A DNA stretch of 64,000 bases, taken from Zingiber officinale (taxonomy: Eukaryota; Streptophyta; Magnoliopsida; Zingiberales; Zingiberaceae). The notes beneath the pieces are model-generated. The model worked only from the letters and a program-made list of their open reading frames with translations. It ran no database searches and was not told the origin of the DNA. The position numbers were made by a program, and so were the translations under genes. Location: NCBI RefSeq assembly GCF_018446385.1, contig NC_055993.1, positions 43,893,645-43,957,644 on the forward strand, in the 5' to 3' direction. Shown piece after piece: positions 24,404-59,320 of this stretch (positions are counted from its first letter, which is position 1; each line of letters starts with the position of its first letter).

Positions 24404-25321
24404 TGGATGATCGAATCTGTGTTTTGATAATAGCAAAGAGTTTCAAAGTTAAGTTATTTTTTTATCGAACAAATTGAACTAAGTGTGCAGGAAAGTCCTA
24501 AGTGATCTTAGGTAAAGGAAAGTCCTAGCTACGGTTAGGCAAGTGGAAAGTCCTAGATACGGTTAAACAATGAAGTCCTGGTCCGGGGGACTGGACGAAA
24601 TCTTAGCGCGTCGAAGACTTTGGATGAAATCCTAAAGTCGAGGACTGTAAGTGAAAATCCTAGGGGTCGCAGACACCAGATGGAAGTCTGGATGGGTCGT
24701 GGATCGGACATTCAACATGAAGTCCTGAAGTCTCGGGCGCTGAGTAAAAGTCTAGACGGTATGGAGGACCGGTCTGGTAAATTATAATTTCTCCTGAGAG
24801 AATTAGGTGAGGACGCGTTCCCTGAAAAGGAAACAGTAGGCGACATTCCTATCTAAATTTTCAGTGAAACTCAAAGTCATGACTCAAAGTCATGAGCGGA
24901 TAGTCCGAAGACTGTCAAAAGTTAATTTTTATATATTGTTTGATTGTTATTCTAACTCTATTTTGTAGAAAGATTAATATTTTGTAGGTTAGGATTTTAC
25001 CTTATTTGGTCGACCGAACATTGAGATCAGTCGACTGAACCCCAATGATCAGATCAGGGCACGGGCAGCCTCGACCAAGGGATCGATCGGACGTCGGGTC
25101 TAGTTTACCGAACGATGGATAAGAAGCGACTTCATTGGGCTGAGTTGATCTAACTAGATAAGCCAAGGATCATCGATGGATTGGTTGACCGAACGGCGGG
25201 ATCAGTCGACTGTGTTGGTGCGGTTAGCACTAACGGTCTAACTCAGGTTTTGATGAATGACAAATCAGGTTAAGTTAGGTTTGTTGTTGTCTGACACTTT
25301 TATCAAGTGTGCAGGAAAAGT

Positions 25322-25518
25322 CCAGCTAGGTCGACGGGCTGACCGGATAGCTGGCGAGAAGTCCAAGCGGGTCGACGGGCTGACCGGACGCTTGGCGAGA
25401 AGTCCAGCTAGGTCGACGGGCTGACCGGATAGCTGGCGAGAAGTCCAAGCGGGTCGACGGGCTGACCGGACGCTTGGCGAGAAGTCCAGACGGGTCGACG
25501 GGCTGACCGGACGTCTGG
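25322..25518 (+). repeat. Five tandem 41-bp hairpin units with covarying arms
   Basis: Each unit has a 5' arm of 7 bases, an inner GGTC, an 8-base loop, GACC, GGA, then a 3' arm complementary to the 5' arm. Arms: CCAGCTA/TAGCTGG (25322-25354 and 25404-25436), CCAAGCG/CGCTTGG (25363-25395 and 25445-25477), CCAGACG/CGTCTGG (25486-25518). Both arms change together, while the loop does not change. Confidence 0.9.
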
Positions 25519-25778
25519 CAGGTAAGTGAGGTAAGTCACTGGAGGGGAGTGACTGCGAGGACGCGTTCCCGGGTAGGGAACATTAGGCGTCGATCCGACT
25601 TAGATCCATTTCGGATATCTAAGTCGAGATCGTGACTAGATTCCGGTCTCGGAAAGACGGAATCTAAGTCATACTTTGCTCATCTATAAAACTGTGCTAA
25701 CATTCTTTTGCTGCAGGGTACATTTACCTCGGACTAACCTTTTTCTGCAGGAGAAGGACTTTCTGGAGAAGAGGGGTC

Positions 25779-25903
25779 CGGGCGCCCGGAAGGCAAATTT
25801 CATCCAGCCGAGTCGTCGTCACGTGGAGCATCATGGTTTGTGCAGCTACGTCACATTCCAGGCGCCCGGAAGGGATTCAGGCGCCCGGGACAGCATATAA
25901 AAG
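25779..25903 (+). promoter_or_regulatory. GC palindromes and TATA box of the copia LTR
   Basis: CCGGGCGCCCGG, a perfect palindrome, at 25779-25790, with GGCGCCCGG again at 25861-25869 and 25880-25888. TATAAAAG follows at 25896-25903. The palindromes sit just upstream of the core promoter. In the 3' LTR there is one extra copy near 34379-34408. Confidence 0.7.
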
Positions 25904-26270
25904 AAGCCCCAGGCAGGAGCTTCAGAATCAATCATCAACTGAGAACTTTCGACTGCTGGTCCCATTGCTCTACGTTCCTGCGACGCTAACAAAGCTCCGA
26001 CAAAGTGCTTCTTCGTTTTTGGTTAATTTTCTTGTCGGTATTACTTTGTTTCATTAAGCATTTCCTGTATTCATTCTGTAATTATATTCGAATTGCTAGT
26101 GATTGCCCAACGAAAGTGGTCAAGGACCACGGGCCTTCGAGTAGGAGTCGTCACAGGCTCCGAACGAAGTAAAAAACAACTGTGTCTACTTTACTTTTCC
26201 GCTGCGCTAATACTCTATATTTTCGAATCGATATTCACCCCCCCTCTATCGAATCTATCGGTCTTACAAG

Positions 26271-26282
26271 TGGTATCAGAGC
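26271..26282 (+). other. Primer-binding site, initiator Met-tRNA type
   Basis: TGGTATCAGAGC two bases after the LTR end, the standard plant copia primer site. Confidence 0.9.
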
Positions 26283-26456
26283 GGTACCGCTCTGATTTGG
26301 TGCAACCACCAATCAGACAAATGTTAATTCCAAACTGATATTATTATCTTTTGGAAGATTTTTTGTTACACTTAGAGTTTCTATTTTTTCCCGCACTGCT
26401 AATCCAAGACGAAGTCTTGGAATTTTTTCTAGTTAATTTAGTGTGTGCAGGATAAG

Positions 26457-28122
26457 ATGTCTCAACAAGAAGGCTTCAGCACAGTTCGTCCTCCCCTATT
26501 CAACGGGGATGACTTTTCGTACTGGAAGAGAAGAATGGAGGTCTACATGAAGACAGACTACGACCAATGGATGAGCGTCACAAAGGCTTATAAAATTCCA
26601 GTAGACAACTCCGGGAAAATAATAGACCCTGAAGAATGGACAAATGATTTAAAGAAAAAGGCATCAATGGAGAACAAAGCCATCAACACTCTACACTGCG
26701 GACTAACACGAGAAGAACTGAACCGGGTCGGACCGCATGAAAACGCTAAGGAGCTCGGGATAACCGATCGAGCTGCACGAAGGAACAAGCGACGCGAAGG
26801 TAACAAAAAGAGATTTGCTGTTAAATAAAATTTTTAATATAAAAATGCAGGAAGGAGAAACGGCAAGTCAGCTCCACGCGAGGATCAAGGATATCCTCAA
26901 CGGTCTCCACGCGATAGGACACCAAATGGAGAACCGAGACTTAATAAGGTACGCGTTAAATGCTTTTCCGCGAAATAATTTGTGGGCATCAATTGTAGAT
27001 GCTTACAAAATTTCAAAAAATCTATCTAAATTAAAATTGGATGAACTCTTTTGTGAATTAGAACTTCATGAGCAAACTAACGCCGGGGTCGAGAAAGGTG
27101 TAGCTTTAATTGCAGGTTCCTCTAAAGAAAGGAAGAACAAGCCCGAATCTGAAGAAGATTCCGATCAAGACTCTGAGGACGAAGAACACCTGGTGAACCT
27201 GGTAAGGAAGATGTTCACCAGGAAAAAGAGAAGCTTCAACAAACAGGATCTTCAGAAGATCAGTTCGCCAGCCGACTCAAGAAATGTCACATGTTTCGGG
27301 TGTAACAAAAAGGGGCACTACAAGAACGAATGCCCAAGATTGAAACTTGACAAACCAAAGTCAACAAAGAAGAAAGCCCTCAAAGCAACATGGGACGATT
27401 CCTCCTCAGACGAATCGGAGGGAGAAAGGCAAAAACACCAAAGTCACCTCGCGATCGATGCTGAAACGGAAGACGAATCAGAGGAATCGGAAGACGGGTC
27501 CGAACCCGAATCGAGCCACGAGTCCGCACTCGTTTCCGAAGGTTCCGAAGAGGTATACCGAAACTTAAATCATAAATTCTTTAGAATTATCTCGTGTTTA
27601 AATAAAAAATTAGTTAAATTGGAAAATGAAAATAAATCGCTTCTTGAGGAAAATCAAAACCTCAAGGAACAATTAAAAAATTCGAATTCAACTCAAGACC
27701 GAACACTTGAGGAGGAGAATTTATCATTAAAAAGTGAAATTAATAAGTTAAAAGAATTGTTGGAAAAATTCACAACAAGATCTAAAAATTTAGATTTAAT
27801 TCTAAATAACCAAAAGGCATGCTATAATAAAACCGGACTTGGATATAAGTCAAAATCAAACAAAACCTTTAAATCATTATTAACCCAACACAAAGCAACT
27901 AAACAAGCTTGGGTCCCGAAAGCGTGCTTAACCACGCAAGTAGGACTTAATCAATTCTATATACCTAAAGATAAAATACATTATATAAACTTGAATAAAT
28001 CAGATCAAAACCTAAAAAATAAATTTAACTTAAAATCAAAATTCAAAACTCAAAATTTGGACTATCACCAAGTTGATTATAACTATAAAAAGAATCGACA
28101 CAAACCCAAAAATCTAAATTAA
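26457..28122 (+). pseudogene. SIRE-like gag, one frameshift
   Basis: Starts MSQQEGFSTVRPPLFNGDDF at 26457. The capsid-like domain runs to about 26750, where small deletions shift the frame; it resumes as ELHEGTSDAKVTKRDLLLNK and is open from about 26775 to 28122. A CCHC zinc knuckle (CFGCNKKGHYKNEC, near 27292-27333) binds RNA in this family. An acidic Ser/Glu-rich stretch (about 27380-27550) is followed by a coiled coil (about 27560-27790: KLENENKSLLEENQNLKEQL) and a Lys/Asn-rich tail. Large gag with C-terminal coiled coil fits SIRE/Maximus. A decayed homologue is at 40971-42310. The frame ends at 28122 and does not lead into pol. Confidence 0.88.
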
Positions 28123-29591
28123 TGGCCAATAAGTCAGGGGGAGGCTCCAGAATAGCTGGCACCTCCAAAACTAACATAACCCGACAGGGTAATCAAGATT
28201 AGTTAAAAAGAGACCGAAGTTAACTTGACTCATGGTACTGGTGAAGTTTTTGGATGATAGTACGTTAGGGAAGCTTGGGCATCGCATGTCTAGAAAGATA
28301 TGGCTTCGATCTGGTGCATTTGGCCAAGTGGAACTGACCGAAGCTACCCTTAAACGAATCCTAACCAGTTAGACCAAGATTTAGTACTAAGTTCCGTGGA
28401 TAGGACTATTCGGAAAACTTCGAAAGGTTGGTTACTTCTAATGATGTCCCTGTGACTCACCAAGTTTAGAAGTTTATCCGAAGAATGCTTATTTGTGGAA
28501 ACCAAAACTAAATCTGAATCTAACACAAGTTAAACCAAAAGTCTGTAATCAAACCAATTTCATCTCACAAAATCATAGGATTCCCTGATTGATAATATAG
28601 ATCGGGTGAGATGAATAAGGCTTAACTTAATTTTAAATTTTCAAAATTTTAATTTTAAACTTAAAAATTATTTTCAAAATTTTAAACTTAAAAAATTATT
28701 TTCAAAATTTTAAACTTAAAAATTATTTTCTTAATTTTAAACTTAAAAATTATTTTCAAAATTTTAAACTTAAAAAATTATTTTCTTAATTTTAAACTTA
28801 AAAATTATTTTCAAAATTTTAAACTTAAAAAATTATTTTCTTAATTTTAAACTTAAAAATTATTTTCAAAATTTTAAACTTAAAAAATTATTTTCAAAAT
28901 TTTAAACTTAAAAATTATTTTCAAAATTTTAAACTTAAAAAATTATTTTCAAAATTTTAAATTTTAATTATTTTCAAAATTTAAATTTTAAACTTAAAAA
29001 TTATTTTCAAAATTTTAAACTTAAAAAATTATTTTCAAAATTTTAAATTTTAATTATTTTCAAAATTTAAATTTTAAACTTAAAAATTATTTTCAAAATT
29101 TTAAACTTAAAAATTATTTTCAACTTAAAAAATTATTTTCAAAATTTTAAACTTAAAAATTATTTTCAAAATTTTAAACTTAAAAATTATTTTCAAAATT
29201 TTAAACTTAAAAAATTATTTTCAAAATTTTAAATTTTAATTATTTTCAAAATTTAAATTTTAAACTTAAAAAAATTATTTTCAAAATTTTAAATTTTAAT
29301 TTTAATTTTAAACTTAAAAATTATTTTCAAAATTTTAAACTTAAAAATTATTTTCAACCTAAAAATTATTTTCAAAATTTTAAACTTAAAAATTATTTTC
29401 AAAATTTTAAACTTAAAAATTATTTTCAAAATTTTAATTTTAAACTTAAAAATTATTTTCAAAATTTTAAACTTAAAAATTATTTTCAAAAATTTTAATT
29501 TTAAAACTTAAATCAATTTCTTAAGTAATGATTGATTAAAAAATTGATAAACTAAGACTAACATAAATCCTACGTGTTGTAGGAAACCAAG
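28123..29591 (+). other. Non-coding spacer between gag and pol
   Basis: About 1.47 kb without a usable frame. It opens with a purine-rich TCAGGGGGAGGCTCC (28134-28148), continues with 480 bp of mixed sequence that is conserved in the second copy (42311-42785), then the AT-rich minisatellite. A TAG at 29580-29582 closes the pol frame just before the protease. Confidence 0.8.
28626..29515. repeat. AT-rich minisatellite, ~27-bp unit
   Basis: About 30 head-to-tail variants of a unit made of AAACTTAAAAATTATTTTC and AAAATTTT, some shortened or fused. Nearly pure A/T apart from single C/G per unit. The KIIFKFKI-repeat ORF on the minus strand (29489-29289) comes from this repetition. Confidence 0.9.
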
Positions 29592-32573
29592 TGGATTTTG
29601 GAGAGTGGTTGCTCCAAACATATGACTGGAGATCACACCAAGTTCACTCAATTAACCTACAAAAGCCTAGGAACAGTTGCCTTTGGAAACAACGGTAAAC
29701 TCAAGGTAATTGGTATAGGTAATATTGAATTAAACATAGATTTCATAATTTCAAATGTTCTACTTGTTGAAAATTTTAAATACAATCTTCTGAGTATAAG
29801 TCAATTGTGTGACACTAGGTATAAGGTAAAATTTCTATCCACAGAATGTTTAATCAAACATCTAGATAATCCAACTATAAGCCTAAAAGGCTTTAGGAAA
29901 GACAATATCTATGCCATCAACTTAACCACTTCTTCAGTCAAGTGTTATTTAACGCAAAAAGAAGAAACCTGGTTATGGCACAGAAGAATGTCACACACCC
30001 ATTTCAGAAACATAAGTAAATTAAACGGTCTAGTTAGAGGCTTACCAAAATTACCTAACTTAGATTCAACAATATGTAATGCTTGTCAACAAGGCAAACA
30101 AACAAAATCTACCCACAAACCAATTAATGAATCCCAAACCAACTCAGTCCTAGAACTTTTACACTTAGATTTATTTGACTCCCACGGGGTCAAATCAATA
30201 AATGGAAGTCTGTACTGTTTAGTTATAATAGACGACTATTCTAGGTTCACTTGGGTCAAATTCTTAAAACATAAAGATGAAACTTTTGAAATTTTTACGA
30301 ATTTCTGCAAACAAATTGAAAATGAAAAAGGCATAAAAATTAAAAGAATCAGAAGTGATAATGGAGGAGAATTTAAAAATCATAATTTTGATAAATTTTG
30401 CCTTGAAAATGGCTACCATCATGAATTTTCTTGCCCTAAAACTCCCCAACAAAACGGAATTGTAGAAAGGAAAAATAGAACCTTACTTGAAGCATCTAGA
30501 ACTATGCTAAATGAATACAACTTACCTAAATATTTTTGGGCAGACAGTCTGCTATGTACAAAACCGAACAACACTAAACAAAAACCACAATAAAACATTT
30601 TTTGAAATATTTTACAACAAGCAACCTAATATAAAATACTTTAAGGTATTTGGTTGCCCAGCCTTTATCCTAAATACTAGAGAACACTTAGGCAAATTCA
30701 CTTCCAAAATAGAGAATGGAATTTTTCTAGGTTACTCTCTGAATAGCAGAGGCTACAGAATTTATAATAAAGTCACTTTAAGAATTGAAGAAACCACCAA
30801 TGTAAAATTCAAAGAATCCAATCAAAACCTAGAACAAGCCCAACCTCAACCAGTTGACTCTGTTCACGAACATATCAATTCTGAGGGAACAAACCAAACC
30901 CAAAATAATGAAGAAGAAGAACAACTACAAGAAAGTCAACCTCCTAGAACCATAAGAGTCAACCCAAACCATCCTACTAATCAAATAATTGGTGACCCAG
31001 ACCTGAGGGTTCAAACTAGGTCATCTTTCAGAAACCTAAGTCAAATCTCGTTAATCTCAAATATTGAACCCAAAACTGTAGCTGAATCTCTACTTGACCC
31101 AGACTGGGTCATATCTATGCAAGAAGAATTAGCTCAATTTGAGCGCAATGAAGTTTGGGACCTAGTACCTCAACCTACCGATAAGAAAATAATAGAAACC
31201 AAATGGGTATTTCGAAACAAATTAAGTGGAACAAGGCCAGGTTAGTTGCCAAAGGGTTCAGTCAAGTTGAAGGACTTGACTACGATGAAACTTATGCCCC
31301 GGTAGCTAGACTAGAGTCCATTAGAATGTTACTAAGCTATGCAACCCATAAAGGATTCAAACTATACCAAATGGATGTCAAGTCTGCCTTTCTTAATGGA
31401 TTGATAAAAGAAGAAGTGTATGTAGGTCAGCCGCCAGGTTTTGAAAGCCTAGAACACCCTGATTATGTCTACAAATTAAAAAAGGCATTATATGGACTTA
31501 AACAGGCACCTAGGGCATGGTATGAAAGACTAACCTCTTACTTAACCTCTAAAGGGTTCAATCAAGGTCAAATTGACCCAACACTATTTGTGAAATCAAT
31601 AAAAGAAGATATTTTTATAGCTCAAATTTATGTAGATGATATCATCTTTGGTTCAACCAACTCAGAATTTTTAAACGAATTTACAAACCTAATGGAACAC
31701 GAATTCGAAATGAGTCTGGTAGGAAAATTAACTTATTTTCTAGGGTTACAAGTCAAACAAACAAATGAAGGAAATTATATTTATCAACAAAAATATACTA
31801 AGGAGTTACTTAGAAAATTTGGAATGGAAAATACTAAAGAAATAAAAACACCTATGGCCGTAAACACAATCCTAGATGATGATCCTAATGGAAAATCAGT
31901 AGACTTAAAACATTATCGGAGCGCGATAGGTAGTCTACTTTACTTAACTGCAAGCCGACCTGACATTTTATTTGCAGTTAGTATGTGTGCTCGATACCAA
32001 ACCTGTGCTAAAGAATCTCATTTGACTCAAGTCAAAAGAATCTTTAGATACCTCAAGGGAACCACAAATGTAGGTATTTGGTATCCTAGGACCAACAACT
32101 TTGAATTAATAGGATATTCTGATTCAGATTATGCCGGATGCAAATTAGACCGCAAAAGCACAAGTGGTGGATGCCAACTACTTGGTCCATCCCTTGTCAG
32201 CTGGTTTAGTAGAAAGCAACACTGTGTTGCACTATCTACAACTGAGTCAGAATACATAGCTATAGGCGAGTGTGTTGCACAAATATTATGGATGATGCAT
32301 ACTCTAAAAGATTTCAACTTAAATATCACAAATGTAAAAGTATTAATTGATAATATAAGTTCGATTAACTTAACCAAGAATCCTGTGCATCATTCAAGAA
32401 CCAAACATATTGAAGTTAGGCATCACTTCATCAGGGATCATGTTACTAAAGGTGATATTGAACTCAAGTACATTGAGTCTAAATCAAATTTAGCTGATAT
32501 TTTTACAAAACCACTCCCTGAAAGTGAATTTAGCAACTTACGACGACAATTAGGGATGTGCTCAATAGACTAG
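29592..32573 (+). pseudogene. SIRE-like pol: protease, integrase, RT, RNase H (two frameshifts)
   Basis: Order is copia-type. Protease begins WILESGCSKHMTGD (29592); the usual catalytic DSG is ESG. GAG-pre-integrase H/C motif WHRRMSH..CNACQQGK (29970-30105). Integrase core with IDDYSRFTW and SDNGGEF (30229-30375) and ERKNRTL (30465). A small deletion near 30550 shifts the frame; integrase C-terminus and linker run to about 31235, where a second deletion shifts it back. [25 protein letters not shown] (31480-31520), YVDDI (31629). RNase H: SDSDYAGC (32120), TTESEY. Tail [20 protein letters not shown]. The separate pol frame after a non-coding spacer is odd, since copia elements normally make one gag-pol frame. 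Confidence 0.9.
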
Positions 32574-33825
32574 GATCCTTCATAAATACTTTCAAAACTG
32601 ATTTTATCAACTTATAGGCTAAACTTGTTTGTTTTCAAAATTTCCACTTTTAAACTTTCAAAAACAGTTTTGGCCTTAGACTAGTCTTACATCCTTAGAA
32701 AGCATGTACCCATAGGTTTAGCTCTTGAGCATCTCACCAACACCTTAGGCTTACCTTGCTTGTGGTTGATAAACATAGAAAGGGGTGAGATGCATAGGCC
32801 ATCTGTCTGGACTTAAGATGCTTATTTCAGTGCATCAGTATAAGTCTGGACGTTAAATACAATTCAAATATTAATCAGATTAAAGTTCATCAGTCGAGTC
32901 AAACACTGACTGATTATAATTAACTTAATCTGACTAACCAAGTGAAAGCTACTATTTTCTAATAGTTAGTTAGTACCTAATTGGTTAGACAGCTGGTTGA
33001 AGTTAAATATCAAATTCAGGGGGAGAAATATAACTATTTATTTTTCCAAATTGAATTTTAAACTTAATTTTGAAAATCAAAGTTTAAAAATAAGTTGGTT
33101 AAAATTGTGAAATTTTTAAACTCACAAACTTTTTATCCTTTTTACCTATTCTTTGAAAACTGAACTTTTCAAGTATTTTAAACCATAGTTTTGAATCTAA
33201 TACTTTTAAACTTTGAAAAATTTGATTTTGAAAAGCAAACTTTACAAAAACATTCCAAAAATTTTTTTCTTAAAGATTTGACTTTACTTAATTTTGACAA
33301 TTTAATTTGAAGGATAAATTTTACAAAATTTAGTTTACAAACTAAGCTTCTCAAAGTTATTTTCCTTGTTTTGAAAATTGAATCTTGTACACTTAGTGTT
33401 GAAAAATAAACTTCAATTAGTTTTGAAAAATAGACTTTTCAAACTTAGCTTTGGGATTTTGGTTTTGAAAACTTATGTTTAAGTAGCATTTCAAAGTTGA
33501 AACTCAGTTAAAACTTATGTTTAAGTAGCTTTCAACAAATTTTCAAAACTTTATACCCCCCCAAGTCAATTTGATCTTCTCTTGGATTTAAAAACTCAGT
33601 TATTGTTCAAGGTATTATTGTTTTCAGTATTTCTCGCTATGATTGTTTACCCTTGTTGTTTGATGAATGTCAAAGGGGGAGAGTTAGGTTGGTTAAGTTA
33701 GAGCAAATAAATGCAAACTTAAAAAACTAACTTAAACCTTAAAAACCTCAAAAATCATGCTTGATTTTTGCATACTTTTTATCACTAACTTAACCAGGTT
33801 GTCATTCCATCAAAAAGGGGGAGAT
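32574..33825 (+). other. 3' non-coding region with polypurine tracts
   Basis: No env-like ORF is left, although SIRE/Maximus elements often have one here. The functional polypurine tract CAAAAAGGGGGAGAT (33811-33825) abuts the 3' LTR. Similar GGGGGAG tracts lie at about 33017-33024 (TTCAGGGGGAGAAA) and 33671-33681 (CAAAGGGGGAGAG). Composition is AT-rich with many TTTTGAAAA words. Confidence 0.8.
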
Positions 33826-34888
33826 TGTTGGTGCGGTTAGCACTAACGGTCTAACTCGGGTTTTGATGAATGACAAATCAGGTTAAGTTAGGTTTGTTGT
33901 TGTCTGACACTTTTATCAAGTGTGCAGGAAAAGTCCAGCTAGGTCGACGGGCTGACCGGATAGCTGGCGAGAAGTCCAAGCGGGTCGACGGGCTGACCGG
34001 ACGCTTGGCGAGAAGTCCAGCTAGGTCGACGGGCTGACCGGATAGCTGGCGAGAAGTCCAAGCGGGTCGACGGGCGGACCGGACGCTAAGACGGTCGACG
34101 GGCTGACCGGACGTCTGGCAGGTAAGTGAGGTAAGTCACTGGAGGGGAGTGACTGCGAGGACGCGTTCCCGGGTAGGGAACATTAGGCGTCGATCCGACT
34201 TAGATCCATTTCGGATATCTAAGTCGAGATCGTGACTAGATTTCGGTCTCGGAAAGACGGAATCTAAGTCATACTTTGCTCATCTATAAAACTGTGCTAA
34301 CATTCTTTTGCTGCAGGGTACATTTGCCTCGGACTAACCTTTTTCTGCAGGAGAAGGACTTTCTGGAGAAGAGGGGTCCGGGCGCCCGGAAGGGATCCGG
34401 GCGCCCGGAAGGCAAATTTCATCCAGCCGAGTCGTCGTCACGTGGAGCATCATGGTTTGTGCAGCTACGTCACATTCCAGGCGCCCGAAAGGGATTCAGG
34501 CGCCCGGGACAGCATATAAAAGAAGCCCCAGGCAGGAGCTTTAGAATCAATCATCAACTGAGAACTTTCGACTGCTGGTCCCATTGCTCTACGTTCCTGC
34601 GACGCTAACAAAGCTCCGACAAAGTGCTTCTTCATTTTTGGTTAATTTTCTTGTCGGTATTACTTTGTTTCATTAAGCATTTCCTGTATTCATTCTGTAA
34701 TTATATTCGAATTGCTAGTGATTGCCCAACGAAAGTGGTCAAGGACCACGGGCCTTCGAGTAGGAGTCGTCACAGGCTCCGAACGAAGTAAAAAACAACT
34801 GTGTCTACTTTACTTTTCCGCTGCGCTAATACTCTATATTTTCGAATCGATATTCACCCCCCCCTCTATCGAATCTATCGGTCTTACA
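33826..34888 (+). repeat. 3' LTR of the SIRE-like element
   Basis: 1063 bp, same ends as the 5' LTR. Differences by eye: a deletion near 34085 fusing hairpin units 4 and 5, one extra GC palindrome copy (34379-34408), and about eight base changes. TATA box at 34515-34522. Confidence 0.92.
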
Positions 34889-35803: not shown

Positions 35804-38800
35804 CAAGCATGATCAACCAATATATCATGAATATCAATCAAATATCTTAGTTATCTTATTCGGGGGTAATTAGAGAGTGTCACATCGATAAGAGATGTTT
35901 ATGGTTGATAAGCACCCATATGTTATACTACGGATGATTACAATTCAAAATGAATATCGAACCCCCTAACTACATTAATGTAGTATAGGGTATGGCCCAG
36001 ATCATTTCTCACAAGGAATATAGACAATGCATGATAAATCTAAGGATCAATTTATTTAAAACTAGGAGTTTGGGTTTTTGAATGTTAAACCTAAGGAATG
36101 AAAAACATTGCATGAAATTAAGCCTAAACTAGCTGAATTATAATTGCAATAGAATTGAAGAAAACATAAATGAAACTATTGATGTAATTGAGTCCAGAGT
36201 TTTGATATTTGTTTGACAATATGTTTAATGAAGTCTAGTCAGGTCAAGGTTGACTTGATGACTAGTAAGGGAAGGGTGAGAAGTCTACCAAGTAACTAGT
36301 CCTAACTGTGGTTAAATAAGGAAAGTCCTAGTCGCGACTAGACAAGGAAAATCTCGGTAGATCATGGAAACTATGTAGGATTCAGTAGGTCTGGAGGACC
36401 CGATATTGAATCCCTAGTGGCTTGATCCGATGCTGAGTCCTAGTGAGTGAAGCCAGGTGATAAAAACTCTAGAGGGAGGAAACCCTAGGTGAGTAAAGCT
36501 AGGTGGAGAAAACCCTAGGGGGAGGTAACCCTAAGTCTTGGTGAGTAAAGCCAGGTAATGAAAATCCTAGGGGAAGGTAATGTTAGGTAACGAGAAGTCT
36601 TGGATGAGTGAACTCCAAGCAAGGTTGATCGAAAGGTTTTCTAGTCGACAACGCGCGGTCGACCGGACCACCAGATCTTGGTAAATCTAAGTTTAGTTTT
36701 ACTATTGTATTTTGCATTAATATTATTGATGTTGGCTAATTTAGTATTGCAGGAAAAGTCTTAATGAATCATACGATCATACACTAAGCGAAAAAAGTCC
36801 AAATAGGTTTGGAGGACCAAATATTTGGCAGGTAGGTTGAGGTAATCAGCTGAAGTGGAGCAACGGGGAGTCGTGTCCCAGGAAGGGACAAACTCTAGGT
36901 CATTGATCCAACTGAAGAAATTAGGAGGTTTCCAAGTTGAGATCAAGGCAAGTCTTACTATCTTTTCTTACTTATGCAGCATTATACTACTGTGCTAACT
37001 TTGTGTTACAAGGATATTTTATATACTGGGTAAACTAACTTTGTTTTACAAAAATCAAGTGGATCGGTCGACTGGATAGGAGGTTCAGTCAACTGAACCA
37101 AGCTAATGTGGCAGAGTTCAGATCACGTAGAGCAGACTTGAAAGTCAGGTGGATCAGTCGACCGAATCCGTGGATCAGTTAACCAAACCTAATTTGGTAA
37201 CAGATAGTGGCATATTCAAATCTTAGCGAAGATAGAAAATGAGCGGATCAGTTGACCAATCAAGGTTATCTGTTGACCGAACATTTAATGGCATTAATGA
37301 CATGAAGATCGAATCTTGACGAAGAAGGAAAGCCGATTGATCAGTTGTCGGATAGGAAGATTGGTCGACCGAACTAATTAGTTGATTGAACGTCTTTTCA
37401 GTTGACTGAATGAAGCTTATAAAAACCTCGAGATCTGAGCAGAAAAAACAAATTTGCCGTGCAACCTTTTGATTTACTACTCTTCTGTTCGTGCTGCTAC
37501 TACGCTTCATTTTTGTGTACAAACTACTACGACTCTTCTCCGACGATCTACGCTTCAACTCTTCATCTATGTCGGTATATTTGTGCTTGCATTATTTCTG
37601 TAAAATAGTAGTTTGTTACTATCCTATACAACATTTGTGTTAGTTCTTCTCCAAAATTTTCGGAAAGAAGACTATTAGTGAATTGTCTAATTGTACGATC
37701 AAGTATCGCGGGTCTTGGAGTAGGAGTCGACATAGGCTCCGAACCAGGTAATCACCTGAGTCATCTATATTGCTTTTGCTTTTATATTCCGCTATTGCTT
37801 TGATATTTTTTTTATGAATCGATATGAAAAGAAAAGGTTTTTAATGAACGATATTCAACCCCCCTTTTATCGTGTTTCCGATCCTTCAAAAACATCCTAA
37901 GCTAACCTAATCTATTGCATCTAACCGAAGAGCACAAACATAAAGGAAATCATTTAATGAAGTCTATGCTAATATAACTAGATTGAATTAAATCAAACAA
38001 CAATTATCATTAACATTTAACCAAACAAATCATTGCAAGAAATTAAGAAGCTAAAATGTATTAAAAAAATTATCAAAGTTGTTTGGGGCATTACATCAAA
38101 CAACTTGTGGGCAACATTCATCTTAAGCCTAATGTAGGAATCTGGAACATGGGAACTTGAATTTAATTACAATCAATCATCAAGAACTCATTCAAACATA
38201 ACAACCAAAGAAGCAATCAACAATCAAAGAAATAGATCAATCTCGGTGATGAAGAGGTTGTTGTTGAATGCTTAAAGGACTGATTAGAGCCATAGAAGAT
38301 GGAGCTTGGATGTAGCTGATTGGTTCAATGTGTCTTCTATTGGAATTTGAAGATCATCGGATCTGACGGAGAAGCTGCTGTGATGAAGTCAGCTATGATG
38401 GGAAGCACTCATTAGAGTGGAGGTGAAGATCTAATCGGATGAGGGCTCGGTGGTGATGAGGCAGAGAAGAAACTGTTAGATGAAGGATGGCGTCGGCGAA
38501 GATCGGAAGAAGAGATGGTTAGATAAGGAAACTCCTTACCTTGTGGATGGAGATAGAGGATCATCAGAGAAAGGGCATCCCCTTGACCTCTACTGGCAAT
38601 GGGGTGGAGAAGAAGTTGAGCTCGCGGGAGGAAAAAGGTGATTGAAGAAGATGATACTCTTTGAAATCGTGATCTGGGCATCACTATAGCATTATCTTTT
38701 GAATCTCCACCATCCGATCTAGATCTAAATTCAACGGATGATATCACATATCTGATCCAAAGGTTGGGATGAGCTCAGATCTTGATCAAGTCTCCAAAAC

Positions 38801-40584: not shown

Positions 40585-40725
40585 TGTTGGTGCAATTTGT
40601 ACTAACAGTCTAACTCAGGTTTTGATGAATGATAAATGAGTTAAGTTAGATATTTTTGTGATCTAATGCATTTACCAAGCATGCAGAGATTGATGAATCT
40701 AGGGGAACTGACATTAGGATGAAAT

Positions 40726-40919
40726 CCAACTATGTCTAAGGATCTGATAGTTGGTGCGAAGCTTAGATAAGTCAAAGGGATGACTTGATATCTGGGTGGG
40801 AAGTCCAGCTGGGTTTGTAGGGACTGACAGATGGCTGAAGTTCAGTTGGATATGCGGACCTGATAATTGGCATGAAGACTTGGTGGGAAGTTCAGTTGGA
40901 TATGCGGACCTGACAACTG
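40726..40919 (+). repeat. Hairpin units in the decayed copia LTR
   Basis: CCAACTA (40726-40732) pairs with TAGTTGG (40748-40754); CAGTTG (40893-40898) pairs with CAACTG (40914-40919). Another unit near 40850-40875 pairs with two G-T wobbles. Same architecture as 25322-25518 but different arms. Confidence 0.75.
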
Positions 40920-40970
40920 GCGTGAAGACTCGGTGGGTTGATAGGCTAGTCAATGTACTATAAATCAGTT

Positions 40971-42310
40971 GCACTCAAGGATCAAGGATATCCTCAATGA
41001 GCTTCACACAATCGACCCCCAGATGGAAAATAAGATCTAATAAGGATATACTTTAAATGCATTTTCTTGAAATGCACTATGGGTATCCATCGTGGATGCC
41101 TAAATTTTGAGAAATTTATCTAAATTAAAATTAGATAAATTATTCTGTGAATTAGAGCAGCACAAACAGACCAAGGCCAACCCCATCGAGAAAGGTATTG
41201 CTCTTGTTGCAAGATCATCTAAAGTAAAGTCCAAAACCAAACCAAAACCAGAAGTTGAGTCTAACCTAGACTCAGACGATGAAGAACACCTAGTAAAACT
41301 GGTAAGAAAAATGTTCACTAGAAGAAAGAAGGGCTTCATCAAAAAGGAACTGCAGAAGATCAAGCCCACATCCAACAACAAGGTAAAATGTTACATGCTT
41401 TAGATGCAATAAGAAGAGACACTATAAGCACGATTGCCCGAATCTCAAAATGAAGAAAGCCCTCAAGGCAACCTGGGATGACTCATCCGCGGAAGAATCG
41501 AACAATGACGAACTAAAGCACGCCAACTACCTTGCGTTGATGGCATACAGATTAGAATCGGAAAGTGAATAGGAAGATGGGTCTGAACCTGAATCGAGCC
41601 ATAAGTCCGCACTCATTTATGAAGTTTCTGATGGGGTATAATCTATTTTAAGTAATTTTTTTTTCAAAATAATTGCATGTTTACATATGAAATTAACTAT
41701 TTCTGAAAATCAAATAAATGAACTAAGTATAGGAAATAAAATACTTAACGAACAACCAAAATTAATCTCAACGACCGAGCTGATTCAAGCTAAAATCCCA
41801 ACTCAAGTTGCAAAACTTGAGGAGGACAATTCTAGATTGAAAGGCGAATGGTTGAACTAAGATAACTTCTAGAAAAATTCACAACTAGATCCAAGTACCT
41901 TAATATGATACTTGGATCACAAAGAGCTGTGTACAATAAGTCCAGACTCGGATATAAGTCCAACTCCACTAACAAAACCTTTATATCTCTAGTCACTCAA
42001 AATAAAAACCAAACCAAAGCCTGAATTTCAAAAGCATGCCTAACCATATAAGTAGGACCTAATTAGTACCATGTACCTAAAAATAAAATACACTATCTAA
42101 ATCAAAATAAACCAAATAACTCACCCTTAATCTAAAAAATTAAACCTTTAAAACTAAATTTAAACCTAAAAATCAAATCAAATCAAATAAATAAAAACTA
42201 AACCTAAATTAAATACATATAAAATTAATCTAAACTATAACTATAACTAAGTCTATTATAACTATAAAACAAATCAACACAAACCCAAAACCTAAAACCA
42301 AAGTTCAATA
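40971..42310 (+). pseudogene. SIRE-like gag relic
   Basis: Homologous to 26875-28120: open frame 41107-41403 with LSKLKLDKLFCELEQHKQTKA and EEHLVKLVRKMFTRRKKGF, then frameshifts, a damaged zinc knuckle near 41390-41435, the acidic stretch and the coiled-coil part. Several stops. Diverged widely from the first copy, so it is a different, older subfamily. Confidence 0.8.
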
Positions 42311-42784
42311 ATTCAGGGGGAGACTTCAAATTAATTGACACCTCTAAAATAATAATTTACTCAGCTGGGTAATTAGGACTAGGATAAATAGGGATAAGTT
42401 TAACTTGATAAATGATACTGGAGAAGTTTTGGATGATAATAGGCTAGAGAAACTCTGTTTATGCATGCCTAGGGAGATATGACTTCGACCTGGTGCATTT
42501 GGCTTAGTGGAACTAACTGAAGCTACCCCTTACTAATCCTAATTGGTTAGATCAAAGTTTTGTACTAAGTTCAGCGGACAAGACTATTTAGAAAATTTTG
42601 AAGGTGTGGTTAATCTAATGATGTTTAGGTGACTCACCACAGTTTAGATGTTTATCTAAAAAATGCTTGTTTGTTGAACCCAAAGCTAAAATTGAATCTA
42701 ACACAAGTTAAACCAAACTCTAAAATTCAACTTAGCTGATCTCATGAAATTATAGGATTCTCTGATTGAAAATATAGATCGGAT

Positions 42785-43425
42785 GAGATGAATAAAATAA
42801 AATTAAATTAAAAATAATTAAAAATAAAATAAATTAAATTAAAAATAAATTAAATTAAATTAAATTTAAAATAATTAAAAATAAAATAAAATAAAATAAA
42901 TTAAATTAAAATGAATTAAAATAAATTAAATAAAATTAAAATAAATTAAATAAAATTAAAATAAATTAAAATAATTTAAATTAAATTAAAATACATAAAA
43001 TTAACTTTAAAATAAACTTAAAACTTAAACTTAAAATTAACATTAAAATCAACTAAAACTTAAACTTAAAATTAAGTTAAAATTAAACTTACCTTTAAAA
43101 TTAACTTGAAACTTAAAATTAACTTAAAACATAAACTTAAAATTAACTTAAAACATAAGATTAAACTTAACTTTAAAATTAACTTAAAACTTAAAATTGA
43201 AATTAACTTAAAACTTAAAATTAACTATTATATTAACTTAAAACTTAAATTAAAATTAACTTCAAAATTAATATAAAACTTAAAATTAAACTTAACTTAA
43301 AATTAATTCAAAAATTAAAATTAAAATGAAAATTAAGACTTAACTTAAATTAAATTTTAATTCAAATTTAAAACTTAAAATAAAAAAAATCTTAAATTAA
43401 ATTTTAAATCAAAATTAAATTTTTT
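42785..43425. repeat. AT-rich repeat at gag-pol spacer of second copy
   Basis: AAATTAAAATAAATT-type units in the first half, AACTTAAAATTAACTT-type units in the second. It follows the conserved GATGAGATGAATAA word, as does the minisatellite at 28626, but the units differ. Confidence 0.85.
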
Positions 43426-45470: not shown

Positions 45471-45475
45471 AGGAT
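45471..45475. other. Target-site duplication AGGAT (left)
   Basis: AGGAT just before the Tekay-like LTR at 45476; the matching copy is 54976-54980. The pair proves the insertion and shows no recombination with another element. Confidence 0.9.
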
Positions 45476-45605
45476 TGTAACGCCCGAAAATTCTCGAAAT
45501 TATTTTAGAAATATTCTATGATTTTTCTGGAATTTTAGGATATTTTTACAGAATTTTTAGAATAGCAGAAGTAGCAAAAATAAATAGAATCGTAAAATAT
45601 CTTAA

Positions 45606-45682
45606 GCAGGAATTGAACCCGAGACCTATTGGGTTCTATGACTTAAGGTGAACTCTAGTAACCAAGTGAACCCAGCAGGGCC
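45606..45682 (-). other. tRNA-like segment in LTR, antisense to element
   Basis: On the minus strand: A-box-like TTGGTTACTAGAG and B-box-like GGGTTCAATTCC about 45 bases apart, with a T-arm stem of four of five pairs. It lies 130-207 bp from the LTR start; repeated in the 3' LTR near 52785-52861. Not called a tRNA gene since acceptor and anticodon stems are not convincing. Confidence 0.4.
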
Positions 45683-47182
45683 GTGCTGAAAGGAAAGGGG
45701 AACAATTATATTTATATTTGAATTGGGACGAATTACCACTTAATATAAATAGGGGATTTAAGTGAGGAATTGTTATTTTCTTAAACGAGGAAACCCCTCT
45801 CCCTCAAAACCCTAGTCACGCCGCCCCCTTCTCCTCTTCTTTCTCTCGGCGCACCAAGCCCCAAGGGCTAGGGTTCCATCTCAAGGGTTCCAGGAGCACC
45901 TTCCGGCGATGACTCTGACACGAGGACGTTTCTCTCCGCAAGAAGAACGCGTGGGCGAAAGAAAATCGTCGAGAAGATCGTCTCCACCGGAAATCTAGCG
46001 ATCAGATCGTAAGGAAATCTAGCGCAGGATGTAAGAAACCCCTCACCTGCAGTATAAGTAGCTTCCGTGTGAATTTTATGCTTCAGTTAGCAGTATGTAG
46101 ATTTTTGGCACAAAGGATGCGAATTAGCGCACACCAAGTGTTCGATTAAATTATTAGCACGGTTAAAATGCAACTTAAGCATTTTACTAGCTTAGCTAAA
46201 TGCGATAGAAGCATTCATTCAGTATGTTTAACTTTAGTACAACTTACATGGGACTACGATCCAATGGGTGGGCTCCCACAGTCGCCTCTAGGTTCAGATA
46301 ACCTAGCTCTAGGTTCAGATAACCTAGAAATAGCAATATAAGAAGAACTCAGCTATAATCAGTATTTTATTTTAGCAGTGGCACTATACTGGATTAGATA
46401 TCCATTGGGTTGGACTCCCATAGTCGTCCCTAGGTTCAGCTAACCTAGTAAACCCTACTAGATTCGGGATTTGTAACCCCGGGTTTAGTTAGGGATGCAC
46501 GCATAGCAAGTACAGTTGTCGGGCCCAAACAGCAGCATGATTATGTATTTTAATCTATTTATGAAATAGTTTTCAAAACTTCACAAATAGTTATGTGAAT
46601 TCAGTACAGCTTTAGCATTAGTTTAGAATTAGCTCAGTACAGTTTGTTTGTATCAGTTTAGTTTTCTATTGATACCATATGATAGCATATGTTAGCACTT
46701 GTTGCCATGACTAGTTTGTTTGTATGCCATGCTATGCTTTTACATGTTCAGTATATATATTTCAAATAGCATGCTTTAAAAACATAAACCGCATCGTATG
46801 CATGTTTTAGTGAGGTAGATGGTTTCTTACTAAGCGAAAGCTTACAGATACTCTTTTCCTTATACTGCAGATAAAGGTAAAGGAAAGATGGACTAGCGGA
46901 GGCTGGGAGGGCAATGCGATGAAGATGTGTGTGGATGGAACCTGGAATAAAGACCTTGGAAGAGCTAGAACATTTAAGAATTTAGTGTTTCTTAACATGT
47001 TACTCTTGCTTATTTAGTTATCTAAGTGCATGGAATTATAAAAAATCTGCTTAGATTGTTAGTGATCATGTTTGGGGTCATAGTTATGTGTTATTAGTAT
47101 GTTTCCAGTTATTTTAGAACTTGTATATGTGAGTTTGGCACGAAACAGTGCTGAAATCAGAGTTTGTTGCGAAATCAGAAAC

Positions 47183-47540
47183 CCCAATCGATCAGTGGAT
47201 CGATTGGGAGCCTGGTTCCGCGAACAGTAAGCTTCTGGATCGATCAGCCGATCTATCCAGTCACATTCTGTCGCGAACAGTAAGTCTCTGGATCGATCAA
47301 CCGATCGATCCAGTCGCATTCTGTCGCGAACAGTAAGCTCCTGGATCGATCAGCCGATCGATCGGGGAAATCGCTCCCGCGAACAGAGAGCTCTGGAATC
47401 GATCAATGGATCGATTGACCAGTCTGGATTGATCAGCCGATCGATCCAGAATATTAACCCAAGCACAGTAGCCATCTGAATCGATCCATGGATCGATTCA
47501 ACAGCTTACAATCGATTGAGTTCAATCTAGATCGATTGGG
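47183..47540. repeat. ATCGAT hairpin array with covarying outer arms (5' LTR)
   Basis: Eight units with GATCGAT cores and complementary flanks: CCCAATCGATC/GATCGATTGGG (47183-47208), CTGGATCGAT/ATCGATCCAG (47235-47260 with one change, 47288-47313, 47424-47449 with one change), CTGGAATCGATC with GATCGATTGACCAG (47393-47422), TGAATCGATC/GATCGATTCA (47477-47500), and two looser ones. Spacers include TCGCGAACAGTAAG. Confidence 0.88.
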
Positions 47541-47792
47541 AAGCTGGGTTTCGACCAAGAGACCTTGTAGTTCAGCTCCTTGACCATAGGGGATGCAGGA
47601 TATGCCATGTATACCATAAATTGCATCCCTTAGCACATGTAGAATAAAGAAATGGTATTAGTTTAGCAAAGTTTTAAATTAATCCAGTTTTCCGCACCTA
47701 GACTTAGTGATGGTCATGGAGACATCTTAGCACAGCATAATGTGACGGTCCGGCCTCACAGCCTAGCCAGTAGAAGGCGGGTCATTACAGAG

Positions 47793-47804
47793 TGGTATCA
47801 GAGT
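47793..47804 (+). other. Primer-binding site, initiator Met-tRNA type
   Basis: TGGTATCAGAGT three bases after the LTR end. Confidence 0.85.
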
Positions 47805-47989
47805 AAAGTTCCATACTTCCTACACAAACATCAGCATTGAACCTGCAGCTTCCAAGTAAGAATACCTCTCACTTTGTTATGTTTATTGCTTTCATATTTG
47901 TAGATAACTAAAGTATGCTTATCTGTGATAGTGTTAGCTATGTAAACATGATGCTTTAGTTATGTACGTCCTTTGTTCCTTTAGAAATG

Positions 47990-49080
47990 ACATGAGGACG
48001 CCCAGCTAGAAGGGCACCAGCTATTGAGCCCCAGCATGAGGCAGGCAGTTCAGTGCCTCCCCCAGATCTTACAGCGGTAGTGGCTCAGTTACAGAAGCAG
48101 CTAGCAGAACAACAACAGGAGATAACCACCTTAAAGGCTAATCAGCAGAATACTCCCACTGTCACCCCGGAACCAAATATAGCCACCCTAGTAGTTATAG
48201 AGGTTCCACCAATCCAGCCTACAGTACCAGTAGCCCCAGCAGCAGAGGCAAAGAGAGAAGCTTATCTAATCCAGTGGCAGAGAGTCAAGCCCGACAACTT
48301 CTCAGGCACCAGTGAACCATGGGATGCTCAAGCCTGGTTCAAAACACTGGAGAGTACGATGGAGCTTCTGGACTGGCTAGAGCATGAAAAGGTGAAGTGC
48401 GCCTCCTTCTTCTTGACAGGAGATGCACGTATGTGGTGGGAGAGAATTAGAGCGAAGCGCCCAGTGAACCAGATGACATGGGATGACTTCGAGAAAGAAT
48501 TCTTCGAGGAGTTCTTTCACATGCGGGTCACAAACCGCCACTACGACGAGTTCACTGAGTTTCGTCAGGGCAACCTATCAGTTGAGGAAGCCGTGAAGAA
48601 ATTCAACAGACTGGCTCGTCTATGCCCTGAACTAGTAAGCACAGAAAAAGAACGAGTCCGGTTGATGCTCAAGATGCTGAGCCGGAAATAGCAATGAATG
48701 TGGCTGGCGGCGTTCATAGGCCGCAAACCACCGAATAACTAGTCGGCAGTGCTCTGACCACCGAGCACTACCAGAACAATATCAGACAGCAGAAGCAAGT
48801 CCTCTCAGAGTCCAAGGATCAGGGAGGCTCAGGTACTCAGAAACACTAGGGCCACAGCTCCCACGGCTCTAATTGGAAAGGGAACTCCAGCAACAAACGC
48901 AAACCAGGGAGTTACCCAAAAGGAGGACCAACCAACAAACAGCCTAGTTATCCCAAATGTGCTACTTGTGGGAAATTTCACCCAGGAGTTTGTCGTAAGG
49001 GCACACGAGGATGCTTTGAATGTGGACAGGAAGGGCATATTTCTAAGCAGTTCCCAAACAAGATAGTTCTTCCTCAACCA
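47990..49080 (+). pseudogene. Tekay-like gag (broken)
   Basis: The frame is readable from about 47998 (GRPARRAPAIEPQ), but the nearby ATG at 47993-47995 is out of frame with it, probably from a 2-nt loss. Main gag block 48053-48691: EAYLIQWQRVKPDNFSGT, RMWWERI, EEFFHMRVTNRHYDEF. A one-base loss near 48688 shifts the frame, then stops follow. The zinc knuckle (CFECGQEGH, near 49012) lacks its last Cys, which is Phe. Known role: particle formation and RNA packaging; this copy cannot do it. Confidence 0.85.
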
Positions 49081-49191
49081 CAGCCGATTCAGTACGGAGG
49101 CCAGCCAGCACAGCTACATCAGATACAGGCCATTCTAGATGGTCCACACATCAGCCAGGGCAGATTAGAGGCCCCTCCAGCTACGACCAAT

Positions 49192-52100: not shown

Positions 52101-52619
52101 GATACCACAGCAGCTATACAGCAGATCCACCAGAGGATGGAGACAGCTCAGAGCCGCCAGAAAAGCTATGCTGATACACGGCGCAGACCCCTAGAGTTTT
52201 CAGTTGGGGATACAGTGTTCCTCAGAGTAGCTCCCATGAAGGGAGTAATGCGTTTTGGTAAAAAGGGCAAGTTAAGTCCCAGATATGTGGGACCATACCT
52301 TATCACTAGAAGAGTTGGCAAAGTAGCATATGAGCTAGAGCTACCACAGGAGATGTCAGCCATCCATAATGTATTTCATGTCTCTATGCTGAAGAAGCAT
52401 ATCCCAGATGCCACCCAAGTGATTGAGCCCCAGTCGGTACCAGTCCACGAAGACCTCAGTTATGATAGTTGGCCTATTCAGATAATAGACCGAGCAGTTA
52501 AGAAATTGCGGAACAAGGAGGTACCATTAGTAAAAGTTATTTGGCAAAATCACACCACAAAAGAGACAACGTGGGAGACAGAAGCTAGTATGAGACAGAA
52601 GTACCCAGAGTTATTCTAA
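49192..52619 (+). pseudogene. Tekay-like pol (frameshift and three in-frame stops)
   Basis: Protease with FDTGATHSYVS (49290-49322) ends at a frameshift/stop near 49441. The next frame (49473-51707) has the RT ([22 protein letters not shown] near 50297), RNase H ([24 protein letters not shown]) and the integrase zinc finger ([21 protein letters not shown], 51370-51500). An in-frame TAG at 51705-51707 interrupts integrase; TGA at 51903-51905 and a TAG near 52063 follow, all in the same frame. The C-terminal part (52137-52619) ends TTWETEASMRQKYPELF, a degenerate chromodomain-type tail. Apart from the stops the sequence is well kept, so decay is recent. Confidence 0.92.
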
Positions 52620-52640
52620 GTTCGAGGACGAACTTTTTAT

Positions 52641-52654
52641 AAGGTATGGGGGAT
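52641..52654 (+). other. Polypurine tract of the Tekay-like element
   Basis: AAGGTATGGGGGAT directly before the 3' LTR start; primes plus-strand synthesis in this class. Confidence 0.8.
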
Positions 52655-58537: not shown

Positions 58538-59320
58538 CTAGTCATCTAGTCCTGACTAGACTTCTCTCTTCCAAACATCAAGTCTTATATGGATTAACCC
58601 TTAGTTAATCTGACCATACTTGGGTACGTTGTTAAAAATCGAAACCCTAGAGGCTGATTGCACCAACACCTCTGCTTGTCCAAGGCACCTCCACTGAGCT
58701 TCGAGGTACCTCCCCATAACTCCAAGGCACCTCAGACACTATTCATCCAAGGTGATATTTTGTCAACTAACTCCTGCAAGACACATTAGTCCAATAATAA
58801 AAAATAACCTATAAAACAGAGTTAACACATTTATAAAATGATTATTAATTAGATCCTATCTTACTAAGATCAAGATCTAATCATGGTCTCAACTTAGACT
58901 TCTAAAATGGCTTTAAGTTGGACTAACGCCTACAGTCTCACTGGGGCTTGTCCTCACTGGATCACTCTCCTCCAATGACTTACCTTTACTTATCATTTAT
59001 AGTCACTTGACTTGCCTCTTGACCCATCAAGTCTGTTTGCCAATTGTCAGGTCCGCAGACCCAACTAGACTTTAGCCAGTTGTCAGATCCTACTGACCCA
59101 GCTAGACTTCCTACTAGATATCAGGTCACGCCTTGACCTATCTGGATTTCATGATAGTTATCAGGTCCTCATACCTAATTGGGCTTCGACCTGGTGTCAG
59201 GTCCTCTAGACCTATCAATTCTAGCATACTTGGTAAAGAGGTTAGACAAGCATAACACATAACTTTAATCGATTTATTATTCATCAAAACATAAGTTTGA
59301 CCATTGGTGCTAACTACACT
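58538..59320 (-). repeat. Minus-strand SIRE-type copia LTR remnants
   Basis: The minus strand from about 59320 (GTAGTTAGCACCAATGGTCA) parallels the LTR start at 25213 (TTAGCACTAACGGTC). The 59215-59010 part holds hairpin units with GGTC/GACC-like inner pairs; 58990-58880 matches the segment after the array; GAGGTACCTC-type palindromes lie at 58690-58735. A second LTR start (TGTTGGTGCAATC) reads from 58669 downward and is cut at 58538 by the Athila LTR. Confidence 0.65.

Follow-up and report, generated by a model that had tools for sequence, protein, structure and literature searches.

Tandem units in the long terminal repeat (LTR) of a retrotransposon of Zingiber officinale have arms that differ from one unit to the next and remain complementary, which raises the question of whether it is the sequence or the pairing that is kept in these repeats and, if the pairing, whether it is kept in RNA or in DNA. 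The stretch analysed here, referred to as the window, comprises 64,000 nucleotides of contig NC_055993.1, and its features are collected in Table 1.

The tandem units and the element that carries them

The array lies in the 5' LTR of element E1, where five units occupy 25318-25522 with a start-to-start spacing of 41 and with perfect 7-bp outer arms of three types, which run a, b, a, b, c along the array. A first-pass annotation of the sequence had read five units of this period and the three arm types. In each unit AAGT is followed by a 7-nt arm and GGTC; a loop of 3-9 nt then leads to GACC, and a bulge of 3 nt separates GACC from the 7-nt partner arm. The result is a 7-bp outer helix and a 4-bp inner helix (GGTC/GACC) with a bulge, mostly NGA, on the 3' side. 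The E1 hairpin is 33 nt long. Types a and b differ at 4 positions per arm, a and c at 3, and b and c at 2, so that the annotated figure of three or more holds for the first two comparisons and fails for the third; every one of these differences is matched opposite. The bulge had been missed in that annotation, as had the further hairpins downstream in U3 and the compensation in the inner core, which reads AGTC/GACT at 40759 (E3) and GATC/GATC elsewhere in the genome.

E1 is considered a recent insertion because its LTR pair differs by just 7 substitutions over 1043 aligned positions (1036/1076 identical, 33 gap positions). The Ty1/copia gene set (gag, integrase, RVT_2) is present, with domain matches to rve (9.4e-15), SH3_retrovirus (1.4e-23), RVT_2 (1.9e-64) and Retrotran_gag_2, the last at 4.1e-05 and 23.5 bits, below its cut-off of 27. 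The main text of PMC2829016 defines the Sirevirus PPT as AGGGGGAG, 10 bp ahead of the 3' LTR with AT/TG next, and the Sirevirus PBS as TATCAGAGC preceded by CA and by ATTGG or AGTGG as a 5-nt spacer. In E1 the PPT AGGGGGAG stands at 33816, followed by AT and by the TG of the LTR at 33826, and the PBS context is CA-AGTGG-TATCAGAGC. The linker holds multiple identical PPT copies (33018, 33674 and 33816, all past the RT frame), as in Sireviruses, and one more copy lies at 28136. Judged by its sequence, E1 carries the marks of a Sirevirus as that text gives them. An inverted repeat also spans the PPT/3' LTR junction, with TTGTCATTCCATCAAAA before the PPT and TTTTGATGAATGACAA within the LTR and one unpaired C. 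Such a repeat is proposed in the main text of PMC2829016 to aid plus-strand priming in Sireviruses; it resembles the units in being a conserved stem at the edge of U3, found in E1 too, but it is a single long stem and forms no tandem array.

E1 is nested within an older LTR, E7 (24440-25212 and after 34894), which has palindromic units of its own, some of them simple 28-bp units such as CCTAAG-tgat-CTTAGG. Palindromes of the GGGCGCCCGG type occur late in the U3 of E1 (25778-25892; 34372-34412), and the 3' LTR has one more 19-bp copy than the 5' LTR. AT-rich tandem arrays are found at 28651-29510, where the array separates the gag frame of E1 from its pol frame, and at 42795-43421. The region directly before the latter (42171-42795) is 77% identical to E1 27994-28618, the stretch just ahead of E1's own AT-rich array, and because of this resemblance the array is possibly an old component of the E1 lineage.

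Table 1. Features of the window discussed in the text, in window coordinates
Feature	Coordinates	Strand	Remarks
E7, older LTR hit by the E1 insertion	24684..24781	+	units at 24684 and 24748
E1, complete Sirevirus-type Ty1/copia retrotransposon	25213..34888	+	LTR pair, TSD GACTG, PBS, PPT/attachment site, gag, integrase, RVT_2 domains
E1 5' LTR	25213..26268	+	aligned to E1 3' LTR
Unit 1, arm type a CCAGCTA/TAGCTGG	25318..25358	+	arms 25322-25354
Unit 2, arm type b CCAAGCG/CGCTTGG	25359..25399	+	arms 25363-25395
Unit 3, arm type a	25400..25440	+	arms 25404-25436
Unit 4, arm type b	25441..25481	+	arms 25445-25477
Unit 5, arm type c CCAGACG/CGTCTGG	25482..25522	+	arms 25486-25518
Downstream U3 hairpin AGTCACT/AGTGACT	25534..25554	+	fold of 25520-25700
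Downstream U3 hairpin GACGC-GTTCCC/GGGAAC-GCGTC	25560..25591	+	for the most part not conserved in E4, E2, E7 as aligned
H1, stem CGACTTAGAT/ATCTAAGTCG and GATC/GATC across a bulged A	25592..25631	+	two pairs compensated vs E4
H2, stem TAGATTCCG/CGGAATCTA, extended	25632..25672	+	two pairs compensated vs E4
Likely TATA box (ATATAAAA)	25895..25902	+	position read; putative promoter element
E1 3' LTR	33826..34888	+	first three units (a, b, a) intact; a deletion has fused 4 and 5 (33931-34121)
E2 LTR fragment	36231..36832	+	four units at 36231, 36377, 36756, 36795
E3 LTR fragment	40685..40924	+	six units at 40685, 40722, 40759, 40801, 40838, 40888
E4 LTR fragment	59036..59223	-	five units descending from 59223

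Pairing of the arms in the window and in the genome

The hairpin recurs in four further LTR fragments of the window (E2, E3, E4 and E7), with 2-6 units per LTR and a spacing of 37-50 in E3 and 37-40 in E4. The same design had been annotated in other LTRs, and units are indeed found there at 36795-36832, 40722-40758, 40888-40924 and, on the minus strand, 59036-59072. The core at up to 3 mismatches has 10 matches in the window and none in 100 shuffles. The other fragments pair less well than the young E1 copy, the only one that is dated: of 7 possible Watson-Crick pairs, own arms form 7.0 in E1, 6.5 in E2, 5.3 in E3, 4.6 in E4 and 4.5 in E7, and in E4 they barely exceed swapped arms (4.6 vs 4.25 pairs).

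Covariation was evaluated on an alignment of 20 window units (A1), three of which (40685, the register of 40801, and 24748) were placed by eye with the pairing in view, and which leaves out further E1 copies. In A1, 89.0% of cells are paired against 76.3% in column shuffles, and the covariation score of 0.539 (0.292 shuffled) is reached in none of 500 shuffles, while partner columns that have been slid pair at only 21-41%. RNAalifold predicts the outer 7-bp helix unaided, with all seven pairs changed on both sides; the inner helix is absent from its prediction on A1 and partial on A4, an alignment of 38 units made of A1 and 18 of the 29 structured-model rows from the genome sample described below. 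Given that these added rows came from structured-model hits, A4 is structure-informed, and the blind sequence-only test is the cleaner one.

The relatedness of the units called for stricter controls. Exchange of right arms within one LTR reached the observed pairing in 0 of 5,000 trials. A tree null, in which substitutions are re-placed on the tree (a simplified procedure of our own, used instead of R-scape), reached the observed covariation and pairing in 0/1,000 runs on A1 and 0/2,000 on the 38 units, and matched the count of pairs with two-sided change in 2/1,000 and 22/2,000, respectively. When the 633 column pairs of the 38 units are ordered by corrected mutual information, five of the seven outer pairs take places 1, 2, 3, 4 and 7; the other two stand at 175 and 286, and the four of the inner helix lie between 46 and 316. 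As a check on the placement by eye, units were also selected mechanically by anchor and core; this gave 34 hits with 28 distinct arm pairs, chance hits retained, and 143 of 196 arm pairs (G.U allowed), compared with at most 126 in 20,000 permutations.

A structured model built from the 20 units finds 26 window sites at E < 0.01, namely those 20 and six more E1 copies, among them the truncated unit 34054; having been trained on window units, it scores them favourably by construction. Against a pair-free version of the model, pairing is worth 13-20 bits at 21 of the 26 sites and just 0.1-9.7 bits at 59073, 34054, 59187, 40839 and 40685, in a comparison where filters differed between the searches and the sites are mostly training sequences. 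Viral contigs served as a null. A relaxed pattern returned 100 stretches from them, which were taken as chance; in 80 of these the best structured-model score was 22.3 bits (E 0.027). At 99 viral-contig sites with exact AAGTCCA, GGTC and GACC at unit spacing, at most 5 of 7 arm pairs are Watson-Crick, and with G.U allowed the maximum of 6/7 is reached in 3/99. The exact core has no match in the viral contigs, and an RT fragment gave two stretches that fit a pattern, neither of them confirmed. A search of the window with Rfam at gathering cut-offs returned a single match, far from the array, the plant snoRNA snoR71 at 1655-1760 (RF00097, 43.1 bits).

The blind sample consisted of 25 stretches of 10 kb (250 kb) from the 3.1-Gb genome to which the window belongs, 20 of them from contig C8 in the neighbourhood of the window and the other five from C1, C2, C3 and C5. 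A DNA search of this genome with the array as query gave 0 matches, a result of no weight since such a search skips very common words. The structured model has matches at E < 0.01 in nine of the 25 stretches, the sole match in one of them (L122) being a 33-nt sequence identical to one in another (L121). With a sequence-only model, which holds no pairing information and whose hits are not chosen for pairing, 36 of 41 rows were used, the five starting at model position 5 or later being dropped. These hits comprise 24 distinct arm pairs, in which 140 of 168 arm pairs are Watson-Crick; swapping right arms gives a mean of 91.2 and a maximum of 114, with 0/10,000 swaps reaching 140, and swaps confined to one stretch give a maximum of 131. 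Twelve different perfect arm sets occur among the blind hits, 4 of the 24 arm types have both sides of the inner core altered, to GATC/GATC, 20 of 24 have GA at the end of the bulge, and the loop again ranges over 3-9 nt. The gain in score from pairing is seen in the blind sample too: in one stretch (L104) the unit at 1180 scores 41.0 bits with pairing and 23.3 without.

It is clear that pairing is kept while the sequence drifts, across LTR subfamilies and chromosomes. The proposal of the first-pass annotation that it is the pairing itself which is kept stood up to column shuffles, slid partners, within-LTR swaps, the tree null and the blind genome sample.

Strand, folding and the rest of U3

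The array hairpins lie about 105-310 nt into the U3 of E1, and the likely TATA box comes after them, at 25895. From established LTR biology, a normal genomic transcript would for this reason carry them only at its 3' end. In the stems, G.U is more frequent than A.C on the sense strand, at 23:12 for the window units, 19:9 for the blind sample (P 0.09 for each set), 42:21 for the two together (P 0.011) and 29:17 in A4 (P 0.10). Unpaired columns lean in the opposite direction, with C to T counted 6 and 8 times against 11 and 12 for G to A, and 7 against 16 in A1 and 11 against 17 in A4; the contrast between stems and unpaired columns on A4 has P 0.057. The wobble excess gives a hint of sense RNA, in units that are related and with downstream hairpins that show no lean (G.U:A.C of 5:6 in E4 and 6:7 in E2). 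Wobbles were accordingly not accepted as proof of RNA. The loop-closing position (columns 16 and 24 of A4), a column pair that ranks 5 of 633 by corrected mutual information, is A-U in 11, U.G in 11 and G.U in 7 of the 38 units; wobbles in both directions would favour RNA, although these states largely track subfamilies.

The comparison of folding with shuffled controls that had been suggested for these units gave a mixed outcome. For the U3 at 25520-25700 the fold is much stronger than in shuffled controls (z -5.66 sense, -6.79 antisense), whereas the E1 array has a sense z of only -1.19, with 26/200 shuffles as low, and an antisense z of -4.85 (0/200). Sense values for the other array stretches are -2.67 and -2.10 in E2, -1.75 in E3, -3.31 in E4 and -1.94 in E7, and the fold of R-U5 is unexceptional (-0.77 sense, -0.43 antisense). 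Pairing of tandem copies with each other may blur this test on the arrays.

Of the hairpins downstream of the array, H1 keeps 12/16 pairs and H2 14/17 in E4, and between E1 and E4 two-sided changes that keep the pair are seen at 25593/25630 and 25597/25625 in H1 and at 25642/25661 and 25644/25659 in H2. E2 keeps 10/16 pairs of H1 and has mostly lost H2, and E7 loses most of both. An alignment of the downstream U3 from nine LTR stretches was too gapped for counting and was dropped.

Known Sirevirus repeats, rival explanations and meaning

The statement in the first-pass annotation that nothing of this kind is described for SIRE-type elements does not stand. Palindromic repeated motifs of Sirevirus LTRs, the RM boxes, were described by Bousios et al. 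2010 (PMC2829016), and the main text of PMC10760457, with reference to Bousios et al. 2016, reports folding and an excess of small RNAs for maize Sirevirus LTR regions. RM boxes and the present units are alike palindromic and repeated, and both precede the TATA box in the upper half of the LTR; according to the main text of PMC2829016 the elements with RM boxes share the PPT, attachment site and PBS of E1, with box sequence varying and symmetry staying. The boxes are presented there as plain palindromes of 10-20 nt, whereas the units are bulged hairpins (33 nt in E1) with a covarying outer helix and a variable loop. Boxes of one motif number at least 8 per element; E1 has five units in the 5' LTR and three and a fused pair in the 3' LTR. 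As for the CGG-CCG core of RM boxes, both triplets occur in 4/20 units (E1 a, b and c, and E7 24748), fall outside the paired core in E1, and are held together by none of the 15 units of E2, E3 and E4; the listed RM of Tnd-1 is also without this core (PMC2829016). The listed Vitis RM motif CGGTCGACCG (PMC2829016) is near to boxes of the type GGTCGACCGAAC, which at up to 2 mismatches has 15 matches in the window (1.15 expected), 13 of them in the E2 and E7 LTRs outside units. Because these Vitis-like boxes occur separately, the units are not RM boxes renamed. Boxes like GGTCGACCGAAC at 25004-25194, 34973 and 36653-37374 place both kinds of palindrome in one LTR (E7, E2).

With the maize Sirevirus hairpins of PMC10760457, as its main text describes them, the units share the clustering of palindromes in the cis region of the LTR and rapid sequence change there; the maize motif CACCGGACNNNGTCCGGTG is a different sequence. 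Neither the main text of PMC2829016 nor that of PMC10760457 mentions compensatory change or covariation, and a literature search, with most subscription papers outside it, returned no paper testing covariation in Sirevirus LTR palindromes. The main texts of these papers thus already cover the palindromic repeats of Sirevirus LTRs, their folding and their excess of small RNAs; what is new is the bulged hairpin, with arms that covary within and between arrays and with lower pairing in the fragments than in the young E1. A Ty3/gypsy-type element at 45472-54975 (RVT_1, RNase H, integrase zinc domain) also has palindromes in its LTRs (47183-47500, 54340-54686), whose core is ATCGATC/GATCGAT and whose outer arms show paired change (CTGG/CCAG, CCCA/TGGG, TGA/TCA), and these are a second, unrelated family of similar design.

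We hold with moderate confidence that the units represent Sirevirus U3 hairpins with a bulge, situated beside the classical boxes and kept by selection for pairing in a lineage that is still transposing. A more detailed proposal, which is tentative, is that they are structured RNA elements with an NGA bulge, a GGTC/GACC core and covarying arms, arrayed in the 3' U3 of the sense RNA, read by Gag or a host protein, selected for pairing and driven apart by small RNAs. The paired form would act in the single-stranded state, and its likeliest setting is the 3' U3 of the genomic transcript, as sense RNA. A protein would read the near-constant bulge and the GGTC core, with the arms needing only to pair, and arm sequence would thereby be free to drift, perhaps pressed by small RNAs derived from the arms themselves.

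Matched arms could also arise with no selection if one arm were copied onto the other, by template switching in reverse transcription or by correction of near-palindromes in a cruciform. This would fit the block-wise changes of E1, where 2-4 pairs differ at once between arm types, the perfect arms of a young copy, as continual copying would leave them, and the richness of U3 in near-palindromes. Nonetheless, copying through the whole hairpin would remove the bulge, which in A1 has A last in 19/20 and G in the middle in 18/20 units and which ends in GA in most blind arm types, and the single pairs compensated in H1 and H2 are isolated, with neighbours unchanged. The argument from the bulge and the variable loop bears on copying of the whole hairpin and not on copying limited to the outer helix, and arm-copying is considered unlikely.

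It is likewise improbable that each unit is a DNA-level dyad, serving as promoter site for a dimeric transcription factor. The location of the units upstream of the likely TATA box agrees with such a role, and with the usual helix pitch the 41-bp period of E1 amounts to about four helical turns. Binding of such a factor to the Sirevirus boxes is proposed in PMC2829016. The spacing of the half-sites varies, however, with the loop of 3-9 nt, as does the spacing of units in E3 and E4, and the arms are free in sequence with pairing kept, whereas a factor reads sequence; the GGTC/GACC core alone could serve as a factor site. Helical phasing as the cause of the 41-bp period was rejected because unit spacing varies in other LTRs.

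That the structure is useless to the element, the arms being templates of host small RNAs and the covariation mere drift in related copies, is very unlikely: maize Sirevirus palindromes are described as small-RNA hotspots in PMC10760457 and PMC5311732, but within-LTR swaps and the tree null both fall short of the observed pairing, and a purely harmful template should lose it. Heavy C-to-T decay on both arms, turning G-C into A-T, is hardly credible as the source of the compensation, for although 25/37 two-sided Watson-Crick cells (cells, not events) are transitions and the step from E1 type c to the unit at 36795 requires such changes only, the other 12/37 are double transversions, which largely refute it, and neighbouring C's are intact in the same units.

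Why elements retain folded regions that invite silencing is a question raised in the main text of PMC10760457, where a functional cost of their loss is conjectured. With selection for pairing as the preferred reading, the covariation described here means that the fold is what is kept, and makes that conjecture testable by compensatory mutants, while the covariance model provides a means of locating arrays of this kind in other plant genomes and of dating them.
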